A stretch of DNA of 64,000 nucleotides from Vibrio tubiashii (GTDB lineage: Bacteria; Pseudomonadota; Gammaproteobacteria; Enterobacterales; Vibrionaceae). Position 1 is the stretch's first letter. The number at the start of each line of letters is the position of its first letter. The stretch is taken from contig NZ_CP117031.1 of assembly GCF_028551255.1 (NCBI RefSeq), positions 186,001 to 250,000 on the forward strand, given 5' to 3'. The notes beneath the pieces are model-generated. The model saw nothing but the letters and a program-made list of their open reading frames with translations. It had not been told where the DNA came from and made no database searches. Positions 35,625 to 46,337 of this stretch are shown piece by piece. The translations under genes and the position numbers were made by a program.

Positions 35625-36650
35625 TTAGTGGGCAGGCTCATGTTCACAATAAGATTGCGTCACTTTACGGTATTGAGTGGGCGTCATGTCATAAAACTTC
35701 TTGAACAGTAACCGGAAATGATTGATGTTGCTGTAGCCCACTTGACGGCTGATGGTTTCAATGTTCAGCCGGGTGGTACTGAGCTTGTCTCGTGCAGACG
35801 AGAGGCGCAGGCGCTGAATATAGTTAACCGGCACGTCGCCGGTTGCCGCTTTGAACCGTCGCGTCATCTGTTTTTCGCTTAAAAAACTCTTGCTTGCGCA
35901 GCGTGCCACGGTCAGATTGCCTGGGTGTTCATGATGCATCCAGTCTTGCAGTTCATGGATCAGCGTGTCGTTGTGCTGCCGATATTGGCCAAAACTGGTC
36001 AGGCAAATCCGCGCAACATTGGAAATGTCCCCCCCAATGTAGCGCTCACAATGCGCGCGATGCCCACTGCCGAACAACTCATCGATCATCAATAAGGTGG
36101 CGTCATAATAATCCCGCACGCTCGACGAGCAGATAAACGGCCCTTCGTGAGTGATTTTTAGGTGAGGCATCAGCTTGACACTGGGGTAGCGTTCCCGAAA
36201 GCCCGCCACATGTGCCCAATGGGTGGTGGCACTGCGATGATTGAGTAACCCCAACTCGGCCAGTAAAAACGTCCCCGTGCACAGGGAGACAACAAACTGG
36301 CTGCCGACGAGCTGCTGCGTCAACCACGTTTTGAGCTTGTCTGGCAGCAAATACGCTTCGTCACTTGGATCGCCACAGCAACCGAGCAAGAAAATGTCTG
36401 TTTTTTCAACTTGCTGCCACGGTGTGGGACAGGCAATCGTCAGTCCAGAAAAGGTGTGTATGTGCGCATCGTAAGGAGAGATATAACGCACATCGGGATC
36501 GGGAAGCCCGGCCAACTTGGCGGCAATGATTAACATCTCTACAGGACCGGTGATCGCGGTCGTCGGGACGTTATTGAGTAGTAAGGCGGTGATGCGTAAA
36601 GGTTTGCTAGGTTCTACCATCCGTTCGAACTCCCTTGTTGAGCCAGTCAT
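35625..36650 (-). CDS. GlxA-type AraC family transcriptional regulator
   Basis: This 341-residue protein has an N-terminal DJ-1/PfpI-like domain (LRITALLLNNVPTTAITGPVEMLIIAAKL; LLGCCGDPS; FVVSLCTGTFLLAELGLLN with the nucleophile-elbow-like Cys) and a C-terminal AraC HTH pair ending VGYSNINHFRLLFKKFYDMTPTQYRK. GlxA-type regulators respond to amine or choline-type metabolites in known cases; the ligand here is not evident. It has its own AT-rich promoter region (36651-36935) and lies downstream of the exporter operon in the same direction, but separated from it. Confidence 0.9.
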   Translation of the reverse strand: MTGSTREFERMVEPSKPLRITALLLNNVPTTAITGPVEMLIIAAKLAGLPDPDVRYISPYDAHIHTFSGLTIACPTPWQQVEKTDIFLLGCCGDPSDEAYLLPDKLKTWLTQQLVGSQFVVSLCTGTFLLAELGLLNHRSATTHWAHVAGFRERYPSVKLMPHLKITHEGPFICSSSVRDYYDATLLMIDELFGSGHRAHCERYIGGDISNVARICLTSFGQYRQHNDTLIHELQDWMHHEHPGNLTVARCASKSFLSEKQMTRRFKAATGDVPVNYIQRLRLSSARDKLSTTRLNIETISRQVGYSNINHFRLLFKKFYDMTPTQYRKVTQSYCEHEPAH

Positions 36651-36935: not shown

Positions 36936-39065
36936 CTAGGACTGAGCGCTGACCCCGTTGAGCGCGGCAATATCAATCACGCGATCAGCAGAATCAATGG
37001 TGCTAGGTCGGTGAGCCACAATCACGCGGGTGATTGCGGCTTGGTCACGGATCATGGTGTTGATGTGTTGCTCCGATTGGGCATCCAAGTGACTGGTCGC
37101 TTCATCGAAGATCAGAATGTCTGGTTGTCGATATAGGGCTCTGGCAAGGAGCACACGTTGTTTTTGTCCACCGGACAAGGTGTTGCCCAGTTCACCTACA
37201 AAGGTCTCATACCCCATCGGTAACTGCTCAATGTGCTGGCGAATGTCGGCCATGGCCGCCACGTCGCGTACACGCTGCGCATCAACCTGGAGGTCGAAAA
37301 ACGAAATGTTTTCTTCTAATGAGCCAGATAACAAGGTGTCATCTTGCATGACGCTGCCTATCATCTGGCGATATTCGCTTAGATTCAGCGAACTGAGTGG
37401 CGTGCCGTCGATGAGAATTTGACCTTGGGTGGGCGTTAGCATGCCGAGCATCAACTTAATCACGGTGGTTTTGCCACACCCAGAGGCGCCAATCAGGGCG
37501 ACCGCTTCACCCGCGTGGATCTCAAAGCTGAGATTGTCGATCACGCGAGGCTCATGGTCAGAATACTGATAACTGACCTGTTCAAAACGAATGCTAGGTG
37601 ACAAGTGTGCCACATCGACGTAAGAACGCTGAGGTTCGGGCTCTTCTCGTTCAGTCAACACCACATCGCCCACGCGTTCTAAGTGTAAACTCAGCATCTT
37701 GAGCTGAAACAGAGTATCAATAAAGCCGGAGACTCGGGTAGAGAACTGATCTTTAAACGACAAGGCCGCGATGAGCATCCCTACCGTCAGATCCCCGGTG
37801 AGTGCGGCTGCGGTACCGACCCAAACGATCATCAGACCTTCAAGACCAAAAATCAGAGTACTCATCGACTCGAACATAATGCCGAGTTTCTGCTGTCGAA
37901 TGTCGGCATTGCGCTCATCGACCAAAAGATTTTGCCAACGAACCGCGCGATTGTCAGTGCGGCCAAACAATCGAATGCTCTGGATGCTGCGAACCGTTTC
38001 TAGAAAATACGTTTTTTCCTTAGCACTGGATAAAATGAACTCGAGATTGAGTTCGCGAAATCGCGCGAAGAATCCTTGTCGCAGCAGAAAATAGACGCTC
38101 ATGGCCCCCAAGGCAATGGCGGCTATCTTGGGATCGTAACTCAATAGCATGGCCAGCGCACCCATTGCCAACATCCCGTCCAACAGCGCTTCGACAACCT
38201 GTTTAGTAATGGCACTTTCGATAACGTCCAAAGAATCAAATCGTGACGCGATGTCACCCAGATTACGTTTTTCAAAAAAGGGGATCGGTAAGTGCATCAT
38301 GTGCTGAAAGACGCGTGCACGCCACTGCAGGTTAAAGCTGGCGCTGACTGCCATGACGGTCCAAGCGCGCAATGCACTGGCCCCTACGCGGATCAGGAGC
38401 AGTAAACCAAAGCCTATGATGACCAAAGACAATAAGCTCTGATCTTGGCTGGGGACAACGTGGTCAATCACCACTTGAGGCAGAAAGCTGGCCCCTAAGA
38501 CACAAATCTCATAGACCAGGGCTAACGCAACGATTTTCGCCAGCGAGCCGATCAGACCGTTAGGGCGGCCGAACACATCACGCAAGGTCGGTTGATGGAT
38601 GTCATGACGCATGGGGGCCATGCTGTCGAGTGGGGTCAGCTCTAAGATCACTCCCGTGAAATGCTGTGAAAACGCCGCGCGCGACAGACGGCGGCGGCCA
38701 ATATAGGGATCGTGAATGTAAAAATAATGCCGGCTGACCTTCACTAAGACGACAAAGTGATTGAGATCCCAGTGCAAGATACACGGGTTGGCGATGCTCG
38801 CCAAATCGTCCACTTCGACACGCAGCGGACGACCGCTTAGGTCGAGCTTTTTGGCCATGGTCATCAGATCGCTCAGGGTGCTGCCATTGAGCGACACCGA
38901 CATCTCGCTGCGTAATCGGGTTAGGTTTAATTTATGCCCCCAGTACTCGGCAATCATGCCGACACACGCGAGCCCGCATTCAGCGGCTTCGGATTGATAG
39001 AAGAGGGGGATCTTGCGCGAAAAACCGATCTGCAGGCGTTCCGCTAAATCATTCAATACTGTCAC
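36936..39065 (-). CDS. Peptidase-containing ABC exporter (C39 PCAT, CvaB-like)
   Basis: This 709-residue fusion has three parts. The N-terminal C39 peptidase has QSEAAECGLAC with catalytic C30, then H103 in HWDLNHFVV and D119 in HDPYIGR. Six TM helices follow (about residues 170-450). The nucleotide-binding domain has Walker A GASGCGKTT (about 521), LSGGQKQR and ILIFDEATSHLD. This class cleaves double-glycine leaders and exports the core peptide, in bacteriocin systems such as colicin V. All catalytic residues are present. It is the last gene of the peptide operon, 9 bp after the HlyD-type adaptor gene. Confidence 0.93.
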   Translation of the reverse strand: MTVLNDLAERLQIGFSRKIPLFYQSEAAECGLACVGMIAEYWGHKLNLTRLRSEMSVSLNGSTLSDLMTMAKKLDLSGRPLRVEVDDLASIANPCILHWDLNHFVVLVKVSRHYFYIHDPYIGRRRLSRAAFSQHFTGVILELTPLDSMAPMRHDIHQPTLRDVFGRPNGLIGSLAKIVALALVYEICVLGASFLPQVVIDHVVPSQDQSLLSLVIIGFGLLLLIRVGASALRAWTVMAVSASFNLQWRARVFQHMMHLPIPFFEKRNLGDIASRFDSLDVIESAITKQVVEALLDGMLAMGALAMLLSYDPKIAAIALGAMSVYFLLRQGFFARFRELNLEFILSSAKEKTYFLETVRSIQSIRLFGRTDNRAVRWQNLLVDERNADIRQQKLGIMFESMSTLIFGLEGLMIVWVGTAAALTGDLTVGMLIAALSFKDQFSTRVSGFIDTLFQLKMLSLHLERVGDVVLTEREEPEPQRSYVDVAHLSPSIRFEQVSYQYSDHEPRVIDNLSFEIHAGEAVALIGASGCGKTTVIKLMLGMLTPTQGQILIDGTPLSSLNLSEYRQMIGSVMQDDTLLSGSLEENISFFDLQVDAQRVRDVAAMADIRQHIEQLPMGYETFVGELGNTLSGGQKQRVLLARALYRQPDILIFDEATSHLDAQSEQHINTMIRDQAAITRVIVAHRPSTIDSADRVIDIAALNGVSAQS

Positions 39066-39074
39066 TGTATTACC

Positions 39075-40328
39075 TTACATGTATTCTTGGACTTTTTTGA
39101 AAGGATCGAGGAGCCACTGATAGATTTTTCGTCGTTCGACTTCTAGGCTCGCTTCAAGGTTCATTCCGGCACGAAGTGGGGTGTCGACCCCATACACATC
39201 CACCGATTGCGAGCGCAGCGTCACTTTGACTAAGTAGACAAACGGTGGCAACGGGGTTTTGGCTTGGGAAGGCGGTTGGTATTTGAGATCGTCCACCGCA
39301 ACCGTGGTGGATGAGATAGCGTCAATCACCCCCTCGTACTGGCCGAATTTTTGGTAGGGAAACGCTTCATATTGCAAACGGACGGATTGACCCACGGATA
39401 AAAATCCCACCGCCCGGCTTGGGACGAACAACACCGCCTGCAAAGCTTGACCCTCGGGAATGATGCTGAGTAACACACTGTTTTGCGACACGGGCCCTTG
39501 CGAGACATTGAGTGCCGAGACGGTGCCGTCAAAAGGCGAGGGGACGACCGTCTCTTTAAGCGCATTGTTGGTGGCTAATTGCTGTTGGACGTCGCCAACG
39601 CGGCGCTGCAATTGGGCGCGTTCTAAGGTCAATTGGCTACCAAGTTGCTTGATTTCTGCCTGCTTTTGCGTTTGCTGGTAACGAAAGTCGTCCAATTGCA
39701 ATTGCAATTGCTGCAAATCGGCCTCAATGGCGAGCATGTCACTGCGCCGTTGGCGCAGCTCTATTTTACTGATGGCTTGCTGCTGCTGCTTGGTGACGAA
39801 GGACGCCAGTGTCTCCTGAGCCAGTTTGAGCTGTTGTTTCTTGAGCGCGATGACCTGTCGGTGACCTTCGGCATTGACCGCCAATTGACGGATCTCCCGC
39901 TCCAACGCTTGTTGCTTTTGATGGGTTAAGGTCTCGTTGGCCGCGACCTGCTGTTTAACCAGTTCGACATTCTTGTTCATCAATGCCCCCAAGTGCTGGC
40001 GTAGATCGCCATCGGTGGGGTTGGTGGATTCGGTGTTGATGACATACAGCGCTTGTCCGCGTGTGACCCGCTGTCCTTCCTCGACCAGTCGCTGGCTGAT
40101 GAGGCCGGACTCTGGGGCGAACACATCAGCAATGCCCCCTTTTGGCAGTAACAGCCCTTGCACTTTTTCTTTTTGGCTAAATTCTCCCCAAAGAGTGAAA
40201 GCCACAACCACGATCCCCACGAGGCTAGTCAGGGCAATCAAGCGCGTAAAAGTGGGCGGCAGCGCGATCAAAATGTCACCGTAGTAGCCGTGTTGGCGCT
40301 CGGTCACTTCATTGCGAAATAGGCTCAT
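39075..40328 (-). CDS. HlyD-family secretion adaptor (CvaA-like)
   Basis: This 417-residue protein has an N-terminal cytoplasmic stretch (MSLFRNEVTERQ), one TM helix (about residues 27-47), a biotinyl-lipoyl-like half-motif (GGIADVFAPESGLISQRLVEEGQRVTRGQALYVI), a long coiled coil rich in Gln and Lys (about residues 90-235), the second half VPSPFDGTVSALNVSQGPVSQ, and a C-terminal barrel region. It bridges the ABC exporter and a TolC-type outer-membrane channel. Its start codon overlaps the stop of the preceding gene (ATGA), showing operon coupling. The TolC partner is not in this window. Confidence 0.92.
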   Translation of the reverse strand: MSLFRNEVTERQHGYYGDILIALPPTFTRLIALTSLVGIVVVAFTLWGEFSQKEKVQGLLLPKGGIADVFAPESGLISQRLVEEGQRVTRGQALYVINTESTNPTDGDLRQHLGALMNKNVELVKQQVAANETLTHQKQQALEREIRQLAVNAEGHRQVIALKKQQLKLAQETLASFVTKQQQQAISKIELRQRRSDMLAIEADLQQLQLQLDDFRYQQTQKQAEIKQLGSQLTLERAQLQRRVGDVQQQLATNNALKETVVPSPFDGTVSALNVSQGPVSQNSVLLSIIPEGQALQAVLFVPSRAVGFLSVGQSVRLQYEAFPYQKFGQYEGVIDAISSTTVAVDDLKYQPPSQAKTPLPPFVYLVKVTLRSQSVDVYGVDTPLRAGMNLEASLEVERRKIYQWLLDPFKKVQEYM

Positions 40329-41704
40329 TGAAGCTCCAAAGCGGGGTGATATTCATGAAAGTAGACCTCGGCGTTACGCCAAAATAACCAACCTTGTGGG
40401 CTGATTTCTATCAGTTGGCACAGGGCGTCGGCCTTGGCTTGCACTATGGCCTCGCGGGATAGGTGCCGTGTCGGAATGGGCGTAACTTCCAGAGTGAAGC
40501 GTTTTCGTTTGACCAGCCCGGCGATGTACAAATTGGCCGCCGTTTTGTCGGCCAGTAAGGCGCCAGTGTGGGTGATAAACGCGCGCTGCTGCCACATCGT
40601 ACACGCCGTGAATGAGCGTGCCATCTGAAGCCCCGACGCCTCGTCCGAAACAAACAACGGATTGCCATCGGCAAACATAATAATGTGTGCCCCTGCCCGC
40701 GCCCGTTTAAGCAGTTTGAAAAACGAGTGCTTACCTGCGGGCGGCAAGATTTCCAAGGTGCGTTCATGACCTTGCTCAGCGAAAGCTTGGTGACACAGAG
40801 TGATCATGGTGTCATCCCAGGGGTTACCGTAGACCACCACATCGCGATCTGAGGGCAGATTTTGCAGCACGCTGTACACCGCGCTAATGGGGTCAAACAG
40901 GTGAAGTAACTCAATGATGCACTGACCGTCAAACGGCGACTGAGGGGAAGACAGCGGAGCCGAGATCACGCGGTGTGCCCATTCAACCGAGCGAGGACGG
41001 CGCAATTTCCGCAACAGATGGGCGGTGTAGCCCATATTGATCGCCAGTTCTGCCAAGTTGGCTCTGGCCAAGTGACGTGCTTGTTCGTTGGGACACGCAA
41101 GCACGCGCTGAATATTGTGTTGCGGCGCGGCCAAAATGTCCGGCTGAACGTAGCAATCCCACCACCGAGTCAGCAGGCGAAGGAGCGCGCGGGTTGGGCG
41201 TTTGCCAAACGACGACATCATCAAAGCCAATGGGGTTAACCGCTTGACCAGCGTGCGTTCTTGGGCTTGCTCTCGTTTGAAAACTTGGGCCAGTGGTGAG
41301 GGGCCTGAGGAGGGCTCGCCCAGCGATAGAACGTAGTTGACGTAACCGGGCTTTTTACACAGATCGAGAAACTCCATGCTGCGATAATGTCGCTCGCCTA
41401 AATACGGATCCCACACCAGCAGTCCCTGAAGGGAGACGTCGAGGACGACAACGCAATGGTGCAAGTTCCAGTGGACCAGACAGGGGGGCGACAATAACTC
41501 CAGATCCGACTCCTCCTGAACGGCGGTAGCGGAAAAGGGGACACCTTGCTCCGTCAAATACACCGCTAAGCGTTCGTGCAGATACATCGAGGAAAAAGAA
41601 GAGAGACGGTCCACATGCGCTTGGGAAAGCGCGAGTCCTAGTTTGGTGAGGCACTGAAACAATGGGTGTGGCGTGTGGGACAAATCGTGAGTGGGTGCGT
41701 TCAT
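40325..41704 (-). CDS. Degenerate C39-like domain fused to LpxL/LPLAT-like domain
   Basis: This 459-residue protein lies between the precursor peptide and adaptor genes. Residues 1-115 align by eye with the C39 domain of the exporter: H83 (in HWNLHHCVVV) and D99 (in VWDPYLGERHY) match its His and Asp, but its catalytic Cys falls on Leu22. Residues 165-450 resemble LpxL/HtrB-type acyltransferases: NIQRVLACPNEQARHLARANLAELAINMGY, IIMFADGNPLFVS, THTGALLADKTAAN and PQGWLFWRN near the end. The catalytic HX4(D/E) motif is replaced by YGNPWDD (about residues 292-298). Both units may thus be pseudoenzymes, perhaps binding the leader and a lipid or membrane. The second-domain assignment is an inference. 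Confidence 0.75.
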   Translation of the reverse strand: MNAPTHDLSHTPHPLFQCLTKLGLALSQAHVDRLSSFSSMYLHERLAVYLTEQGVPFSATAVQEESDLELLSPPCLVHWNLHHCVVVLDVSLQGLLVWDPYLGERHYRSMEFLDLCKKPGYVNYVLSLGEPSSGPSPLAQVFKREQAQERTLVKRLTPLALMMSSFGKRPTRALLRLLTRWWDCYVQPDILAAPQHNIQRVLACPNEQARHLARANLAELAINMGYTAHLLRKLRRPRSVEWAHRVISAPLSSPQSPFDGQCIIELLHLFDPISAVYSVLQNLPSDRDVVVYGNPWDDTMITLCHQAFAEQGHERTLEILPPAGKHSFFKLLKRARAGAHIIMFADGNPLFVSDEASGLQMARSFTACTMWQQRAFITHTGALLADKTAANLYIAGLVKRKRFTLEVTPIPTRHLSREAIVQAKADALCQLIEISPQGWLFWRNAEVYFHEYHPALELQ

Positions 41705-41761
41705 AACAGTGGTCCAATTCGCAGGAGAAGAAGGCGGAGCTCAATACCCCGCCTGCGCCGA

Positions 41762-41968
41762 TTAGATGCGGCGGCTGTTGCTACAACATACGTTGCCGTT
41801 TTTTGGTTTTGGTGATGGACGGGTTAGGCCTTCAACACCCAAACCAGCCGATTCGAGTAGACGAGACAAACCGTCTGCAACCGCACCAGCCCCATCAATT
41901 GCGCCAACCACGCCACCGCCGCTCACTTGTTTTGTTTCTTCTTGAGTTAATAGTTGTGTTTTTTTCAT
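41762..41968 (-). CDS. Double-glycine leader peptide 1 (bacteriocin-like precursor)
   Basis: This 68-residue peptide starts after AAGGAAATT. The leader MKKTQLLTQEETKQVSGG ends in a double Gly (a third Gly follows), the cleavage mark for C39 exporters. The predicted core of about 50 residues starts GVVGAIDGAGAVADGL (Gly/Ala-rich, amphipathic). It ends in a basic, Pro-rich tail with the vicinal pair C61-C62 and a final SNSRRI. It is closely similar to peptide 2. The target and activity are unknown; exported antibacterial or signalling peptide are both possible. Confidence 0.85.
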   Translation of the reverse strand: MKKTQLLTQEETKQVSGGGVVGAIDGAGAVADGLSRLLESAGLGVEGLTRPSPKPKNGNVCCSNSRRI

Positions 41969-41985
41969 AATCGAATTTCCTTAAT

Positions 41986-42216
41986 TTATTTTTGATTACC
42001 AAGTTGAGTTTTAATGGATTGCCAAACTGACTGTTCTATAAAACTCGATTTCAAACTATTCAATTCATTTTTAGAAAACAACGAAATATAGGATGAATGT
42101 CCTTTCTCTGATGTAAATACAATCCAAATAGTATTGTTGTGGGGGGGTATGTATTTCTTTTTTACTTCTATTAACAGAAAAGTAAATAAAAAACCATTAA
42201 AAGATAATAATATCAT
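41986..42216 (-). CDS. Small membrane protein, candidate immunity protein
   Basis: This 76-residue frame lies between the two precursor genes, 17 nt before peptide 1. It has one N-terminal hydrophobic segment (about residues 2-17), then a basic, serine-rich soluble tail (KKKYIPPHNNTIWIVF... FSKNELNSLKSSF). Immunity proteins of colicin-V-like systems are often small membrane proteins placed next to the precursor. No clear ribosome site is visible before the ATG, and I recognise no family. Role inferred from position only. Confidence 0.55.
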   Translation of the reverse strand: MILLSFNGFLFTFLLIEVKKKYIPPHNNTIWIVFTSEKGHSSYISLFSKNELNSLKSSFIEQSVWQSIKTQLGNQK

Positions 42217-42254
42217 TAATGTCTTTTAATGAGGGTCTGGGATGGCGAAGAGAC

Positions 42255-42281
42255 AAAAAAAACGGAGCGTAAGCTCCGTTT
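42255..42281 (-). terminator. Terminator after precursor peptide 2
   Basis: A stem of aaacggagc / gctccgttt with loop gtaa is followed, on the minus strand, by eight T. It lies 5 bp after the peptide 2 stop. It should limit read-through into the rest of the operon, giving peptide 2 its own abundant transcript. Confidence 0.85.
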
Positions 42282-42285
42282 AAGA

Positions 42286-42486
42286 CTAGATGCGGCGGCT
42301 GTTACTGCAGCAGAGGTTACCGTTCTTAGGCCTTGGGGACGGGCGGGTTAACCCATCAACCCCATGACCAGAGGCATTAATGACACGAAAGAGACCATCG
42401 GTTACTTTCGCCGCTCCATTGATCAAGCCAACGCCCCCACCGCTGACGCTTTTCATTTCATGATGAGTTAATTGTTGCTTCTTCAT
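42286..42486 (-). CDS. Double-glycine leader peptide 2 (bacteriocin-like precursor)
   Basis: The ATG at 42486, after AAAAGGT, gives 66 residues; the frame is open further upstream. The leader MKKQQLTHHEMKSVSGG ends at a double Gly. The core of about 49 residues begins GVGLINGAAKVTDGLF and shares with peptide 1 the tail GLTRPSP(R/K)PKNGN(V/L)CC followed by SNSRRI, with C59-C60. A terminator follows directly. It is the first gene of the cluster and may be the main product. Confidence 0.85.
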   Translation of the reverse strand: MKKQQLTHHEMKSVSGGGVGLINGAAKVTDGLFRVINASGHGVDGLTRPSPRPKNGNLCCSNSRRI

Positions 42487-44072: not shown

Positions 44073-44885
44073 ATGACAAAACATATCAATGGCACGTCGG
44101 TGTGGCAGTTTTCGCCACTGGATAAGGATCAACTGATCCATGTGCAAACCAAACAAGTGAAGAAACTTAAGGGCCCGGAATGTCGCGTGCTTGAGGTTTT
44201 GCTCGCTCACCAGGGTCAGGTTGTCGCGAAGCACGATCTGCTTACCATGGCTTGGCCTGGACGCGTGGTCTCTGATGCGAGCCTGACTCAAAGTATTGCT
44301 CAGTTACGCTTGGCACTGGGCGACAATGGTAAAGATCAAGACGTGATTAAAACCGTGCCTTATCAAGGCTACCTGTTGTTTGATAACCTGATTGAACTTG
44401 TAGAATCAGACTCTGAGCGCTCAGAGCTGAGCGCGTCACCAGACTTAGCGTTGGGGCGAGAAGAAGCGCCGCTTGACCCGCCCATTGAGCCTCAAACCCG
44501 GTGGATCTCATGGGGAAAAAAAATCGCGGCTGGGCTGCTGCTGGTGATCGCAGCCATCCAAACTGCGGAAGCGGTCCATCGTTACACCTTTGCCTGGGAC
44601 GTGCAGTTGGATACATGGAAAACGGTCAATCGTGGCAGTACCACTTTTTTCTATCAGGATAGCCACGCCAGTCGCAAGCTCTATCACTATTTGAGTGCCA
44701 ACAGCGCGATTGCCAACGATCACCAGATCAGTCGTGTGCTCGTGTCGACAGGGGTACGCCACTACTACGTCGCCTGTGTGTACACGGATGCCCATACCGA
44801 TATGCAAAATGCCAAAAACCTCACCTTCGCGTTAGGTGAGCGGTTCCAATTCATTGGGGGTACGATCGATGATGTCTGCCGATAA
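44073..44885 (+). CDS. VtrA-like ToxR-family membrane regulator
   Basis: This 270-residue protein has a winged-helix DNA-binding domain (GPECRVLEVLLAHQGQVVAKHDLLTMAWPGRVVSDASLTQSIAQLR, about residues 33-85; KTVPYQGYLLF). A TM helix (about 149-169, AAGLLLVIAAIQTAEA) and a periplasmic domain of about 95 residues follow. This is the ToxR/VtrA architecture. The next gene overlaps it and looks like VtrC, so it is likely a VtrA homologue. In Vibrio parahaemolyticus VtrA/VtrC senses bile salts and turns on the T3SS2 regulator VtrB. No T3SS gene lies in this window. Confidence 0.82.
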   Translation: MTKHINGTSVWQFSPLDKDQLIHVQTKQVKKLKGPECRVLEVLLAHQGQVVAKHDLLTMAWPGRVVSDASLTQSIAQLRLALGDNGKDQDVIKTVPYQGYLLFDNLIELVESDSERSELSASPDLALGREEAPLDPPIEPQTRWISWGKKIAAGLLLVIAAIQTAEAVHRYTFAWDVQLDTWKTVNRGSTTFFYQDSHASRKLYHYLSANSAIANDHQISRVLVSTGVRHYYVACVYTDAHTDMQNAKNLTFALGERFQFIGGTIDDVCR

Positions 44886-45354
44886 CGGGCTCAAATTGTC
44901 CCTGTTGCTGGCGTTGCTCACCACCCTGGCAAACGTGACTCTGAAAGTTCGCGATCGCCCGGCCTTCATGGATGGAGAGAGCAGTCAGCTGTATTACAGC
45001 AACAGTGCCAACTACCGACCTAATGGCGAGGTGTATTACATTGAAGACTTTCATACACTTGATGCTCAGATGTTTTTTCGCAATAAATCCTACACCAGCC
45101 GGATGATCGCGGGTGAAGACAAAGCCATTCATTTCAGCTACCTAGCCGAGTTTTACAGTCACAACCTGGTTCAGTTTTCTCAGTTTTCATTGGACAGTGG
45201 GCTGCCTGGGGTACAAAAAGTGGTCGATGTCGAAGCCCATGCGTTAGGCCGGCTAACCAGTGAGACTTTGCAGATCATCCATCAACAAGGTCCGGTGCTG
45301 TGTTACATGAAGCTATTGGAAGGCAGCGTCAAATGTGTGGTGCGAAGAAAGTAA
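44869..45354 (+). CDS. VtrC-like periplasmic partner
   Basis: The ATG at 44869 overlaps the end of the VtrA-like gene by 17 nt and gives 161 residues, the length of V. parahaemolyticus VtrC. An N-terminal TM helix (LKLSLLLALLTTLANVTL) precedes a beta-rich domain (YYIEDFHTLDAQMFFRNKSYTSRMI; EFYSHNLVQFSQFSLDSG) and ends CYMKLLEGSVKCVV with two Cys. VtrC forms a lipocalin-like barrel with VtrA that binds bile salts. Here the family link is by position, overlap, topology and length rather than sequence identity. Confidence 0.78.
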   Translation: MMSADNGLKLSLLLALLTTLANVTLKVRDRPAFMDGESSQLYYSNSANYRPNGEVYYIEDFHTLDAQMFFRNKSYTSRMIAGEDKAIHFSYLAEFYSHNLVQFSQFSLDSGLPGVQKVVDVEAHALGRLTSETLQIIHQQGPVLCYMKLLEGSVKCVVRRK

Positions 45355-45539
45355 CAATCTGCCTTGTGGCTTCTTCAAATCTCAATTGATAGCCATTCAA
45401 ATTGGAACGGGTGTTTCCTGGTTGTCACGCGTCGTAACATGACCCTCTGATCGCATGGAGAGCGTGGTAAAGGGGAGGCGTTCGACGGCCTCATGCTTTG
45501 CCTTCTTCGCGATAAAACTCGTTGAGTAGAGGGCACAAT

Positions 45540-46337
45540 ATGAGCACAAGTGGGCAAGGGATATGGGGATTCACGCCTCTCGACAAAGTGCAACTGACGC
45601 ACGCGCGCACCCAACACACGAAAAAACTTAACGGTCCGGAGTGTCGCTTGCTGACTGTCTTGCTGGCCAATCAGGGAAAGGTGGTGTCCAAGCAAGAATT
45701 GATGACCAAAGTGTGGCCCAACCGGGTGGTCTCCGAGGGCAGCTTAACCCAGAGTATCGCCCAATTACGGTTAGCGTTTGGCGACAGCGGTAAGGAACAA
45801 AAATACATCAAGACCGTGCCTCAACAGGGGTACCTGCTGTTCGCGAATGTGGTCGAGTTGGTCGAGCGTCCTCATGCGTCCACCCCTGTCACGGCCTATC
45901 TCGGTGCGGCGAAACCCCACCCCGATGTGGGGCAAAGGGAGACGAAACTGCCTCACCGCTTGGGGGGCGTGAAAGGGCTTCTTGTGATGGTGTTGATGTT
46001 GGTGACCGGTATTCAAACGGCCGATGTGGTCCATCGGTACACATTCGCTTGGGGTGTGGCAAAACCAACCTGGCAGCATGCTGACCATCTTGACACCACC
46101 TATTTTTACCAAGACGAGCCCGCCAGTCGTCAGCTCTATCACTACTTACGTGATCCAACCACGGGCTTACAGAACGGGCCTATCCACCAGTTACTGATTG
46201 CGGCGACGCGCCACCATTATAATGTGTCTTGCGTGTACGGGGACGTAAACCAAGCCAAGAATCTGACCTTTGTACTGGGTGAGCGGTTTGACGTCATTGC
46301 GACCCACGTTGACCGTGCCTGCCGCTCAGCTCGTTGA
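45540..46337 (+). CDS. Second VtrA-like ToxR-family membrane regulator
   Basis: The ATG at 45540 after AGAGGG gives 265 residues. It is a paralogue of the protein at 44073: shared blocks include KKLNGPECRLL, LTQSIAQLRLAFGDSGK, IKTVPQQGYLLF, TADVVHRYTFAWGV (in the TM/periplasm junction), FYQDEPASRQLYHYL and AKNLTFVLGERF. The TM helix is near residues 146-166. Unlike its twin, no VtrC-like gene overlaps it; the next gene starts 132 bp later and is unrelated. It may share the upstream VtrC partner, or act alone. Confidence 0.82.
   Translation: MSTSGQGIWGFTPLDKVQLTHARTQHTKKLNGPECRLLTVLLANQGKVVSKQELMTKVWPNRVVSEGSLTQSIAQLRLAFGDSGKEQKYIKTVPQQGYLLFANVVELVERPHASTPVTAYLGAAKPHPDVGQRETKLPHRLGGVKGLLVMVLMLVTGIQTADVVHRYTFAWGVAKPTWQHADHLDTTYFYQDEPASRQLYHYLRDPTTGLQNGPIHQLLIAATRHHYNVSCVYGDVNQAKNLTFVLGERFDVIATHVDRACRSAR

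Follow-up and report, generated by a model that had tools for sequence, protein, structure and literature searches.

On the minus strand of a 64-kb stretch of Vibrio tubiashii DNA (contig NZ_CP117031.1, positions 186,001 to 250,000; hereafter the window, whose numbering is used unless another locus is named), a run of genes in a single direction from 42486 to 36936 encodes two short double-glycine precursor peptides, a C39-peptidase ABC exporter with its periplasmic adaptor, and a 459-residue accessory protein. In this last protein a C39-like domain that lacks the canonical protease Cys motif is joined to a domain with the predicted fold of LPLAT acyltransferases of the LpxM/PatA type. We propose that the fusion may acylate peptides under the guidance of their leaders, in a step coupled to export, a reading to which we give a little less than an even chance; on this proposal it would work like the tailoring enzyme of a microcin-type cluster. 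Both leader recognition and peptide acylation by the fusion are plausible, and for a pseudo-protease and an acyltransferase-like domain that stand beside peptides with Cys/Ser tails, acylation before cleavage and export is the simplest reading.

The cluster has features of a class II microcin system, namely two double-glycine precursors with a C39-peptidase ABC transporter and a membrane fusion protein alongside. Precursor 1 (66 residues; 42286..42486) and precursor 2 (68 residues; 41762..41968), both recognized from the list of open reading frames (ORFs), the leader pattern and alignment, are followed by the fusion gene (40325..41704), whose stop overlaps the start of the HlyD-family adaptor gene (39075..40328; family scans) in an ATGA. 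The exporter gene (36936..39065; family scans and motifs) has a GTG start 9 bp downstream of the HlyD gene and encodes a peptidase-containing ABC transporter (PCAT) in which the C39 domain is intact, with its Cys, His and Asp kept in QSEAAEC, NHF and DP motifs (Pfam C39, E 3e-34). Three V. europaeus/V. tubiashii megaplasmid records match 24 kb around the cluster at 98.2–98.6% identity, and the order precursor(s), fusion, HlyD, exporter, all four common to every locus, recurs in V. tubiashii p251, two V. europaeus plasmids, two V. coralliilyticus plasmids and V. tapetis (locus L102, for which the organism name is that of the protein record). The occurrence of the same architecture on three V. 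tubiashii/V. europaeus and two V. coralliilyticus plasmids is more than chance would give, and it bears out the association of the fusion with short double-glycine peptides that a first-pass annotation of this DNA had pointed to. That annotation had also described the gene run itself: the precursors, the 459-residue protein, the adaptor, the exporter and their overlap or short spacing all stand, while a further small ORF of 76 residues, taken there for a membrane protein, is not confirmed as a working membrane or immunity gene.

The fusion is rare. Searches were made in a set of 5.8 billion proteins in which only candidates sharing most words were scored; the whole fusion retrieved six proteins and its C-terminal domain eight, these being the same six, P0008 and a Photobacterium fragment, P0009. 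The relatives (P0002–P0008 and P0009) are named from Vibrio (europaeus, tapetis, sp. RW, coralliilyticus, splendidus) and Photobacterium, and the family alignment holds eight full-length members, including that of the window, to which identities range from 38 to 99%. A class-wide search found the C-terminal domain in one of 369 genomes, and searches of viral contigs and of phages with the fusion gave no match. When genome contigs were scanned with the fusion, the best 80 of 92 loci (11 of these 80 under 10 kb) matched in the C39 region, mostly in long ORFs taken as C39 ABC exporters, and none of those 80 carried the C-terminal domain.

Both domains are under purifying selection, with dN/dS (the ratio of non-synonymous to synonymous substitution rates) between the window and V. 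tapetis of 0.16 for the C39-like part, 0.29 for the linker and 0.13 for the LPLAT-like part. Among five divergent members the LPLAT-like half is the more conserved, at a mean identity of 50.8% versus 35.5%, with 71 of 264 versus 22 of 130 residues invariant. Four cysteines, C18, C262, C304 and C368, are invariant in all eight members of what is presumably a cytoplasmic protein. The source databases name the members 'ATP-binding protein', 'hypothetical protein' or 'C39 domain-containing protein', and UniRef gives the V. tapetis fusion as 'Microcin secretion/processing ATP-binding protein'. We reject the RefSeq name 'ATP-binding protein', as the fusion matches ATP-transporter models solely through their C39 part. 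Judged by these names the fusion does not belong to the standard maturation enzymes that annotation recognizes, and among open-licence PMC papers we found none on a C39–LPLAT fusion or on double-glycine peptides as LPLAT substrates.

The N-terminal half (residues 1–130; 41315..41704) has a papain-like C39 fold. Pfam C39 matches it in 8/8 members (best E 4e-11), the window's own protein scoring below the gathering threshold, and H83 and D99, at the catalytic His and Asp positions, are invariant throughout. The canonical Cys motif, QxxxxxCG, is absent, as the first-pass annotation had noted; C18, invariant in the family, lies close to the expected site and outside that motif, and local alignment to 88 C39 domains spans residues 44–112 only, excluding the C18 region. 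In fold and in retention of the His and Asp positions the domain resembles the C39-like domain of HlyB and the C39 domains of PCATs; unlike these, it lies outside any ABC transporter and is joined to an LPLAT-like domain. The C39-like domain of HlyB, which likewise lacks the catalytic Cys, is thought to tether its substrate.

The C-terminal half (residues 196–459; 40328..41119) takes the LPLAT fold in the predicted structure, and its closest structural relatives, of the LpxM/PatA type, act on lipids. Structure prediction, fold comparison and the Pfam C39 matches thus support the earlier suggestion of a C39-like/LPLAT-like fusion beside an intact exporter, and the second domain did not prove to belong to a common non-LPLAT family. 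The order is that of PatA, LpxL and LpxM: a proposed catalytic His following strand 1, then an acid in block 3, then a C-terminal Pro. H268 (codon 40901..40903), the proposed catalytic His, is invariant in 8/8 members within an HX2D motif completed by Asp271, and lies directly after strand 262–267 in the models. The proposed block-3 acid, Asp346 (codon 40667..40669), is equally invariant and falls on PatA E200 in six of eight alignment runs, and P436 falls on PatA P280 in all eight. H143, block-3 D213 and C-terminal P297 are invariant in 19 LpxL/M sequences, D213 aligning with PatA E200; sliding-window scores put the C-terminal block where expected with both PatA (425–439) and LpxL (425–445). 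From its spacing N197 was expected to be the conserved Asn of LpxL/M; the aligners did not recover it and it is not claimed.

The literature drawn on here comprises PMC4792965, PMC6363468, PMC9746304, PMC10233263, PMC10318531, PMC9505594, PMC13060382 and PMC12824646. In PatA, H126 comes just after strand-1 residues L122 and L124 and pairs with block-3 Glu200; H126A and E200A are inactive, while D131A, which removes the HX4D Asp, keeps 37% activity, so that this Asp is not essential (PMC4792965). The authors suggest use of the block-3 acid for HtrB, MsbB and PatA (PMC4792965). Since PatA does not need the HX4D acid, and since H268 and D346 of the fusion are invariant, the first-pass view that the second domain is dead for want of HX4(D/E) finds no support.

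A bridge between the fusion and known LPLATs is provided by locus L022, from a metagenome-assembled genome of the Pseudomonadales and the one among the genome-contig loci to which gene-by-gene reading extended. When an LpxL/M profile was run on ORFs of at least 100 residues from 100 loci (the 80 genome-contig loci and 20 others), its single match was an unfused LPLAT of 294 residues in this locus (L022:7655-8539), which precedes an HlyD gene and a C39 exporter and is recognized by NCBIfam NF005919 at E 2.4e-8. Its His motif is HMGD, hence HX2D, and its block-3 acid is D194; in the profile alignment these stand opposite the His and Asp of LpxL/M. Among 44 other LPLATs, D stands at +3 in none and D or E at +5 in 39. 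With hhalign the L022 residues fall on H268, D271 and D346 of the fusion at the low probability of 0.9% (E 0.064). A search with the L022 protein as query returned one partial plasmid match and otherwise distant LPLATs only, in 11 of 369 genomes (best E 3.3e-9).

The precursors supply the presumed substrates. Precursor 1 has the leader MKKQQLTHHEMKSVSGG, with L-12, M-7, V-4, G-2 and G-1, and a core of ∼49 residues ending in RPSPRPKNGNLCCSNSRRI; precursor 2 has the leader MKKTQLLTQEETKQVSGG, which shares L-12, V-4 and the GG, and a core of ∼50 residues ending in RPSPKPKNGNVCCSNSRRI. Hydrophobic pockets receive leader residues -4, -7 and -12 in a structure that shows a double-glycine protease together with its leader (PMC6363468). 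Across five aligned precursors (the two of the window, two from V. coralliilyticus L104 and one from V. tapetis) E-8 and V-4 are invariant in the leader, as are one Cys, an Asn, an Arg and the final Ile in the tail, with Ser or Cys at +2 and +4 from the invariant Cys. The second of the V. coralliilyticus sequences (L104:8302-8490) is an unannotated, degenerate precursor-like ORF, with GDG replacing GG and a short leader started by TTG. A search of 329 Vibrionaceae genomes (one for each species) gave precursor matches with E under 1e-30 in just two, G001 and G004, and these are also the two in which the fusion occurs. The next-best match had E 0.012; precursor and fusion therefore co-occur. A RiPP (ribosomally synthesized and post-translationally modified peptide) cluster is reported in one V. 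europaeus strain (PMC12824646), and may or may not be the present one.

In the mechanism that we propose, the pseudo-C39 domain would hold the precursor by its double-glycine leader and leave it uncut, while the PatA/LpxL-like domain, using His268 and Asp346 and perhaps Asp271, would move a fatty acyl group from acyl-acyl carrier protein or acyl-coenzyme A onto a nucleophile of the conserved tail at the C terminus. The invariant tail Cys is the candidate acceptor, with the Ser/Cys positions beside it. After modification the precursor would be handed to the exporter encoded next to the fusion; cleavage after the GG by the intact C39 domain there would follow, and the product would leave through HlyD and a TolC-like channel. 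In its most specific form, in which an LPLAT-fold enzyme fused to a dead C39 leader-binder S- or O-acylates the Cys/Ser tail to give a lipo-microcin made without a GNAT enzyme, the proposal is one that we offer only as a doubtful possibility.

A number of results weigh against an acyltransferase. HX4(D/E) is indeed absent from 8/8 members, as the first-pass annotation had reported, H268 being followed by D271 at +3 and by I or V at +5. That absence may matter, since the HX4E acid is called catalytic in the PDB title of LpxM E127A (5knk). Confidence in the model is moderate (pLDDT 69). H268 falls on PatA H126 in none of the eight sequence-alignment runs, and the sliding-window scores, which misplace the His block, do not favour this register. 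Comparison by hhalign with 32 LpxL/M sequences gave no significant match, a C-terminal domain profile run against PDB sequences found no acyltransferase, and no LPLAT Pfam model matched in the eight members. Matches to NF005919 lie below its cut-off and are absent in two of the eight, and the weaker of them are rivalled in score by unrelated models. To these are added the low hhalign figure for L022, the failure of the leader pattern to recognize a double-glycine peptide in the L022 locus, and the decay of the V. tapetis locus, where the exporter frame ends early, which weakens the argument from a single Cys. The register of H268 is thus taken from the predicted structure and the L022 bridge and not from plain sequence alignment. 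The same two sources, fold comparison and L022, carry what we regard as a probable LPLAT assignment, proof from sequence having failed; with HX4(D/E) missing and the curated cut-offs not reached, the fusion is not placed in the LPLAT family in the strict sense.

The main rival is a non-catalytic escort made of two pseudoenzymes, whose C39-like half would tether the leader while the LPLAT-like half docked on the inner membrane or the exporter, so that the hydrophobic, Gly-rich precursors were kept soluble until export. We consider this unlikely, although a serious alternative. A mere membrane tether would not be expected to evolve more slowly than the C39-like half, nor to keep H268 and D346 invariant in 8/8 members; the L022 locus has an unfused LPLAT with the same HX2D before its exporter, and C39 exporters have no general need of such a partner, one LPLAT ORF being found in the best 80 of 92 loci. 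The system might instead export a class II microcin in the ordinary way, and the fusion would then be dispensable, a leftover of a horizontal fusion event. The rarity of the family, its frequent location on plasmids and the decaying V. tapetis locus would fit; purifying selection in every region (dN/dS 0.13–0.29 between the window and V. tapetis) and the retention of both domains in members as little as 38% and as much as 99% identical to the window's make it improbable.

Self-protection has a similarly low probability in our estimation. Here a separate immunity protein would be replaced either by the LPLAT-like domain, acylating lipid A or a membrane lipid, or by binding of immature peptide to the fusion; this would agree with the lack of a conserved immunity gene, the 76-residue ORF being intact in one of six relatives' loci, and with the lipid substrates of the closest structural relatives. 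A lipid-modifying immunity enzyme would not, however, need a C39-like leader-binding domain, the V. coralliilyticus gene after the exporter could itself confer immunity, and toxicity of the peptide is an assumption. Lastly, the tail might be otherwise modified, disulfide-linked or metal-binding, with the fusion acting through Cys18 as a C39-type thiol acyltransferase resembling BtrH. Only residues 44–112 align locally with C39 domains, leaving out the Cys18 region, and the strongly conserved second domain would go unexplained; we hold this to be very improbable. A tail carrying disulfides alone was considered and dropped.

The cluster shares with class IIa microcins and colicin V (CvaC-CvaA-CvaB-TolC) precursors of <100 residues with double-glycine leaders, grouped on a plasmid with a membrane fusion protein and a C39 ABC exporter; unlike colicin V export, it has the additional pseudo-C39/LPLAT-like protein, no conserved immunity gene that we found, and a core with a Cys/Ser-RRI tail. 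As in the class IIb microcin MccE492, the C-terminal tail of a peptide with a GG leader may be modified, but no siderophore genes were seen in the annotated neighbourhoods on five relatives' plasmids and there is no Gly/Ser-rich siderophore tail, and a siderophore microcin was rejected. From PatA, LpxL and LpxM the fusion differs in that HX2D replaces HX4(D/E), in that the invariant Phe of LpxL/M (FFG block) has no evident counterpart, and in its junction to a C39-like domain and link to peptide export, not lipid synthesis. Like selidamides, lipolanthines, goadvionins and nostolysamides, the cluster combines a ribosomal peptide with an acyltransferase-like gene, those systems in part also using double-glycine processing; they employ GNAT-family acyltransferases, whereas the candidate here is of LPLAT fold and acylation is proposed from the genes. 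In the literature drawn on here, lipidated RiPPs arise by GNAT-type acylation or carry polyketide or prenyl groups; no GNAT family appeared among the matches of the six cluster proteins (for the exporter, among its best 25 NCBIfam matches). If a lipid-A-type acyltransferase does act on the peptide, it would represent a new route to lipopeptides, and a protease fold kept only for reading leaders would be an unusual recognition domain and an aid to finding such clusters. The HX2D motif and the gene order LPLAT-HlyD-C39 provide handles for searching. Even a non-catalytic fusion would mean that two enzyme folds had been turned into export accessories.

The 76-residue ORF (41986..42216, minus strand), listed as an ORF and compared with the relatives' loci, is a doubtful gene with one hydrophobic N-terminal stretch. 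Intact in the window, it is also intact, with 1 nt different, in V. europaeus 07/118 (L106), split across two frames in V. tubiashii p251 and V. europaeus NPI-1 (L103, L107), and broken by stops in V. tapetis; both V. coralliilyticus plasmids (L104, L105) gave no match to it at the cluster. Intact in only one of six relatives' loci, it is a poor immunity candidate, and we found no immunity gene conserved among the compared loci. In V. coralliilyticus a different, unassigned gene, without Pfam match, follows the exporter.

A hairpin follows each precursor gene of the window. That after precursor 1 (42260..42281, minus strand) has nine pairs and then a T run (-13.4 kcal/mol); from its match to the consensus it is terminator-like and a possible attenuator. 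The second, G+C-rich, lies between precursor 2 and the fusion gene (41733..41753, minus strand), and hairpins also follow the precursors of V. tapetis and V. coralliilyticus (L104). This arrangement would fit synthesis of the precursors in excess over the export genes. Terminator-like sites in the scanned region, 12 versus 7.5 expected in shuffles, are not far above chance, and promoter-like sites in that region are not enriched (5 versus 6.0 expected).

In V. tapetis the exporter frame terminates early (L102:6461-8410), its tail diverging at the ABC signature region. Transposase-like ORFs lie on either side of the cluster, which is decaying with its precursor and fusion frames still open. Directly after the exporter of the window and in the same direction lies a gene for an AraC-family regulator with a DJ-1/PfpI domain (35625-36650), which stays next to the cluster in three plasmids. 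Two similar winged-helix regulators with a small partner gene between them, in a ToxR/CadC-like layout, occupy 44073-46337, the first being Trans_reg_C by Pfam and the second judged by eye. In the V. coralliilyticus plasmids the annotation places a gene for a pore-forming protein of the leukocidin family (L104:4849-5757) ∼3 kb upstream of the cluster.

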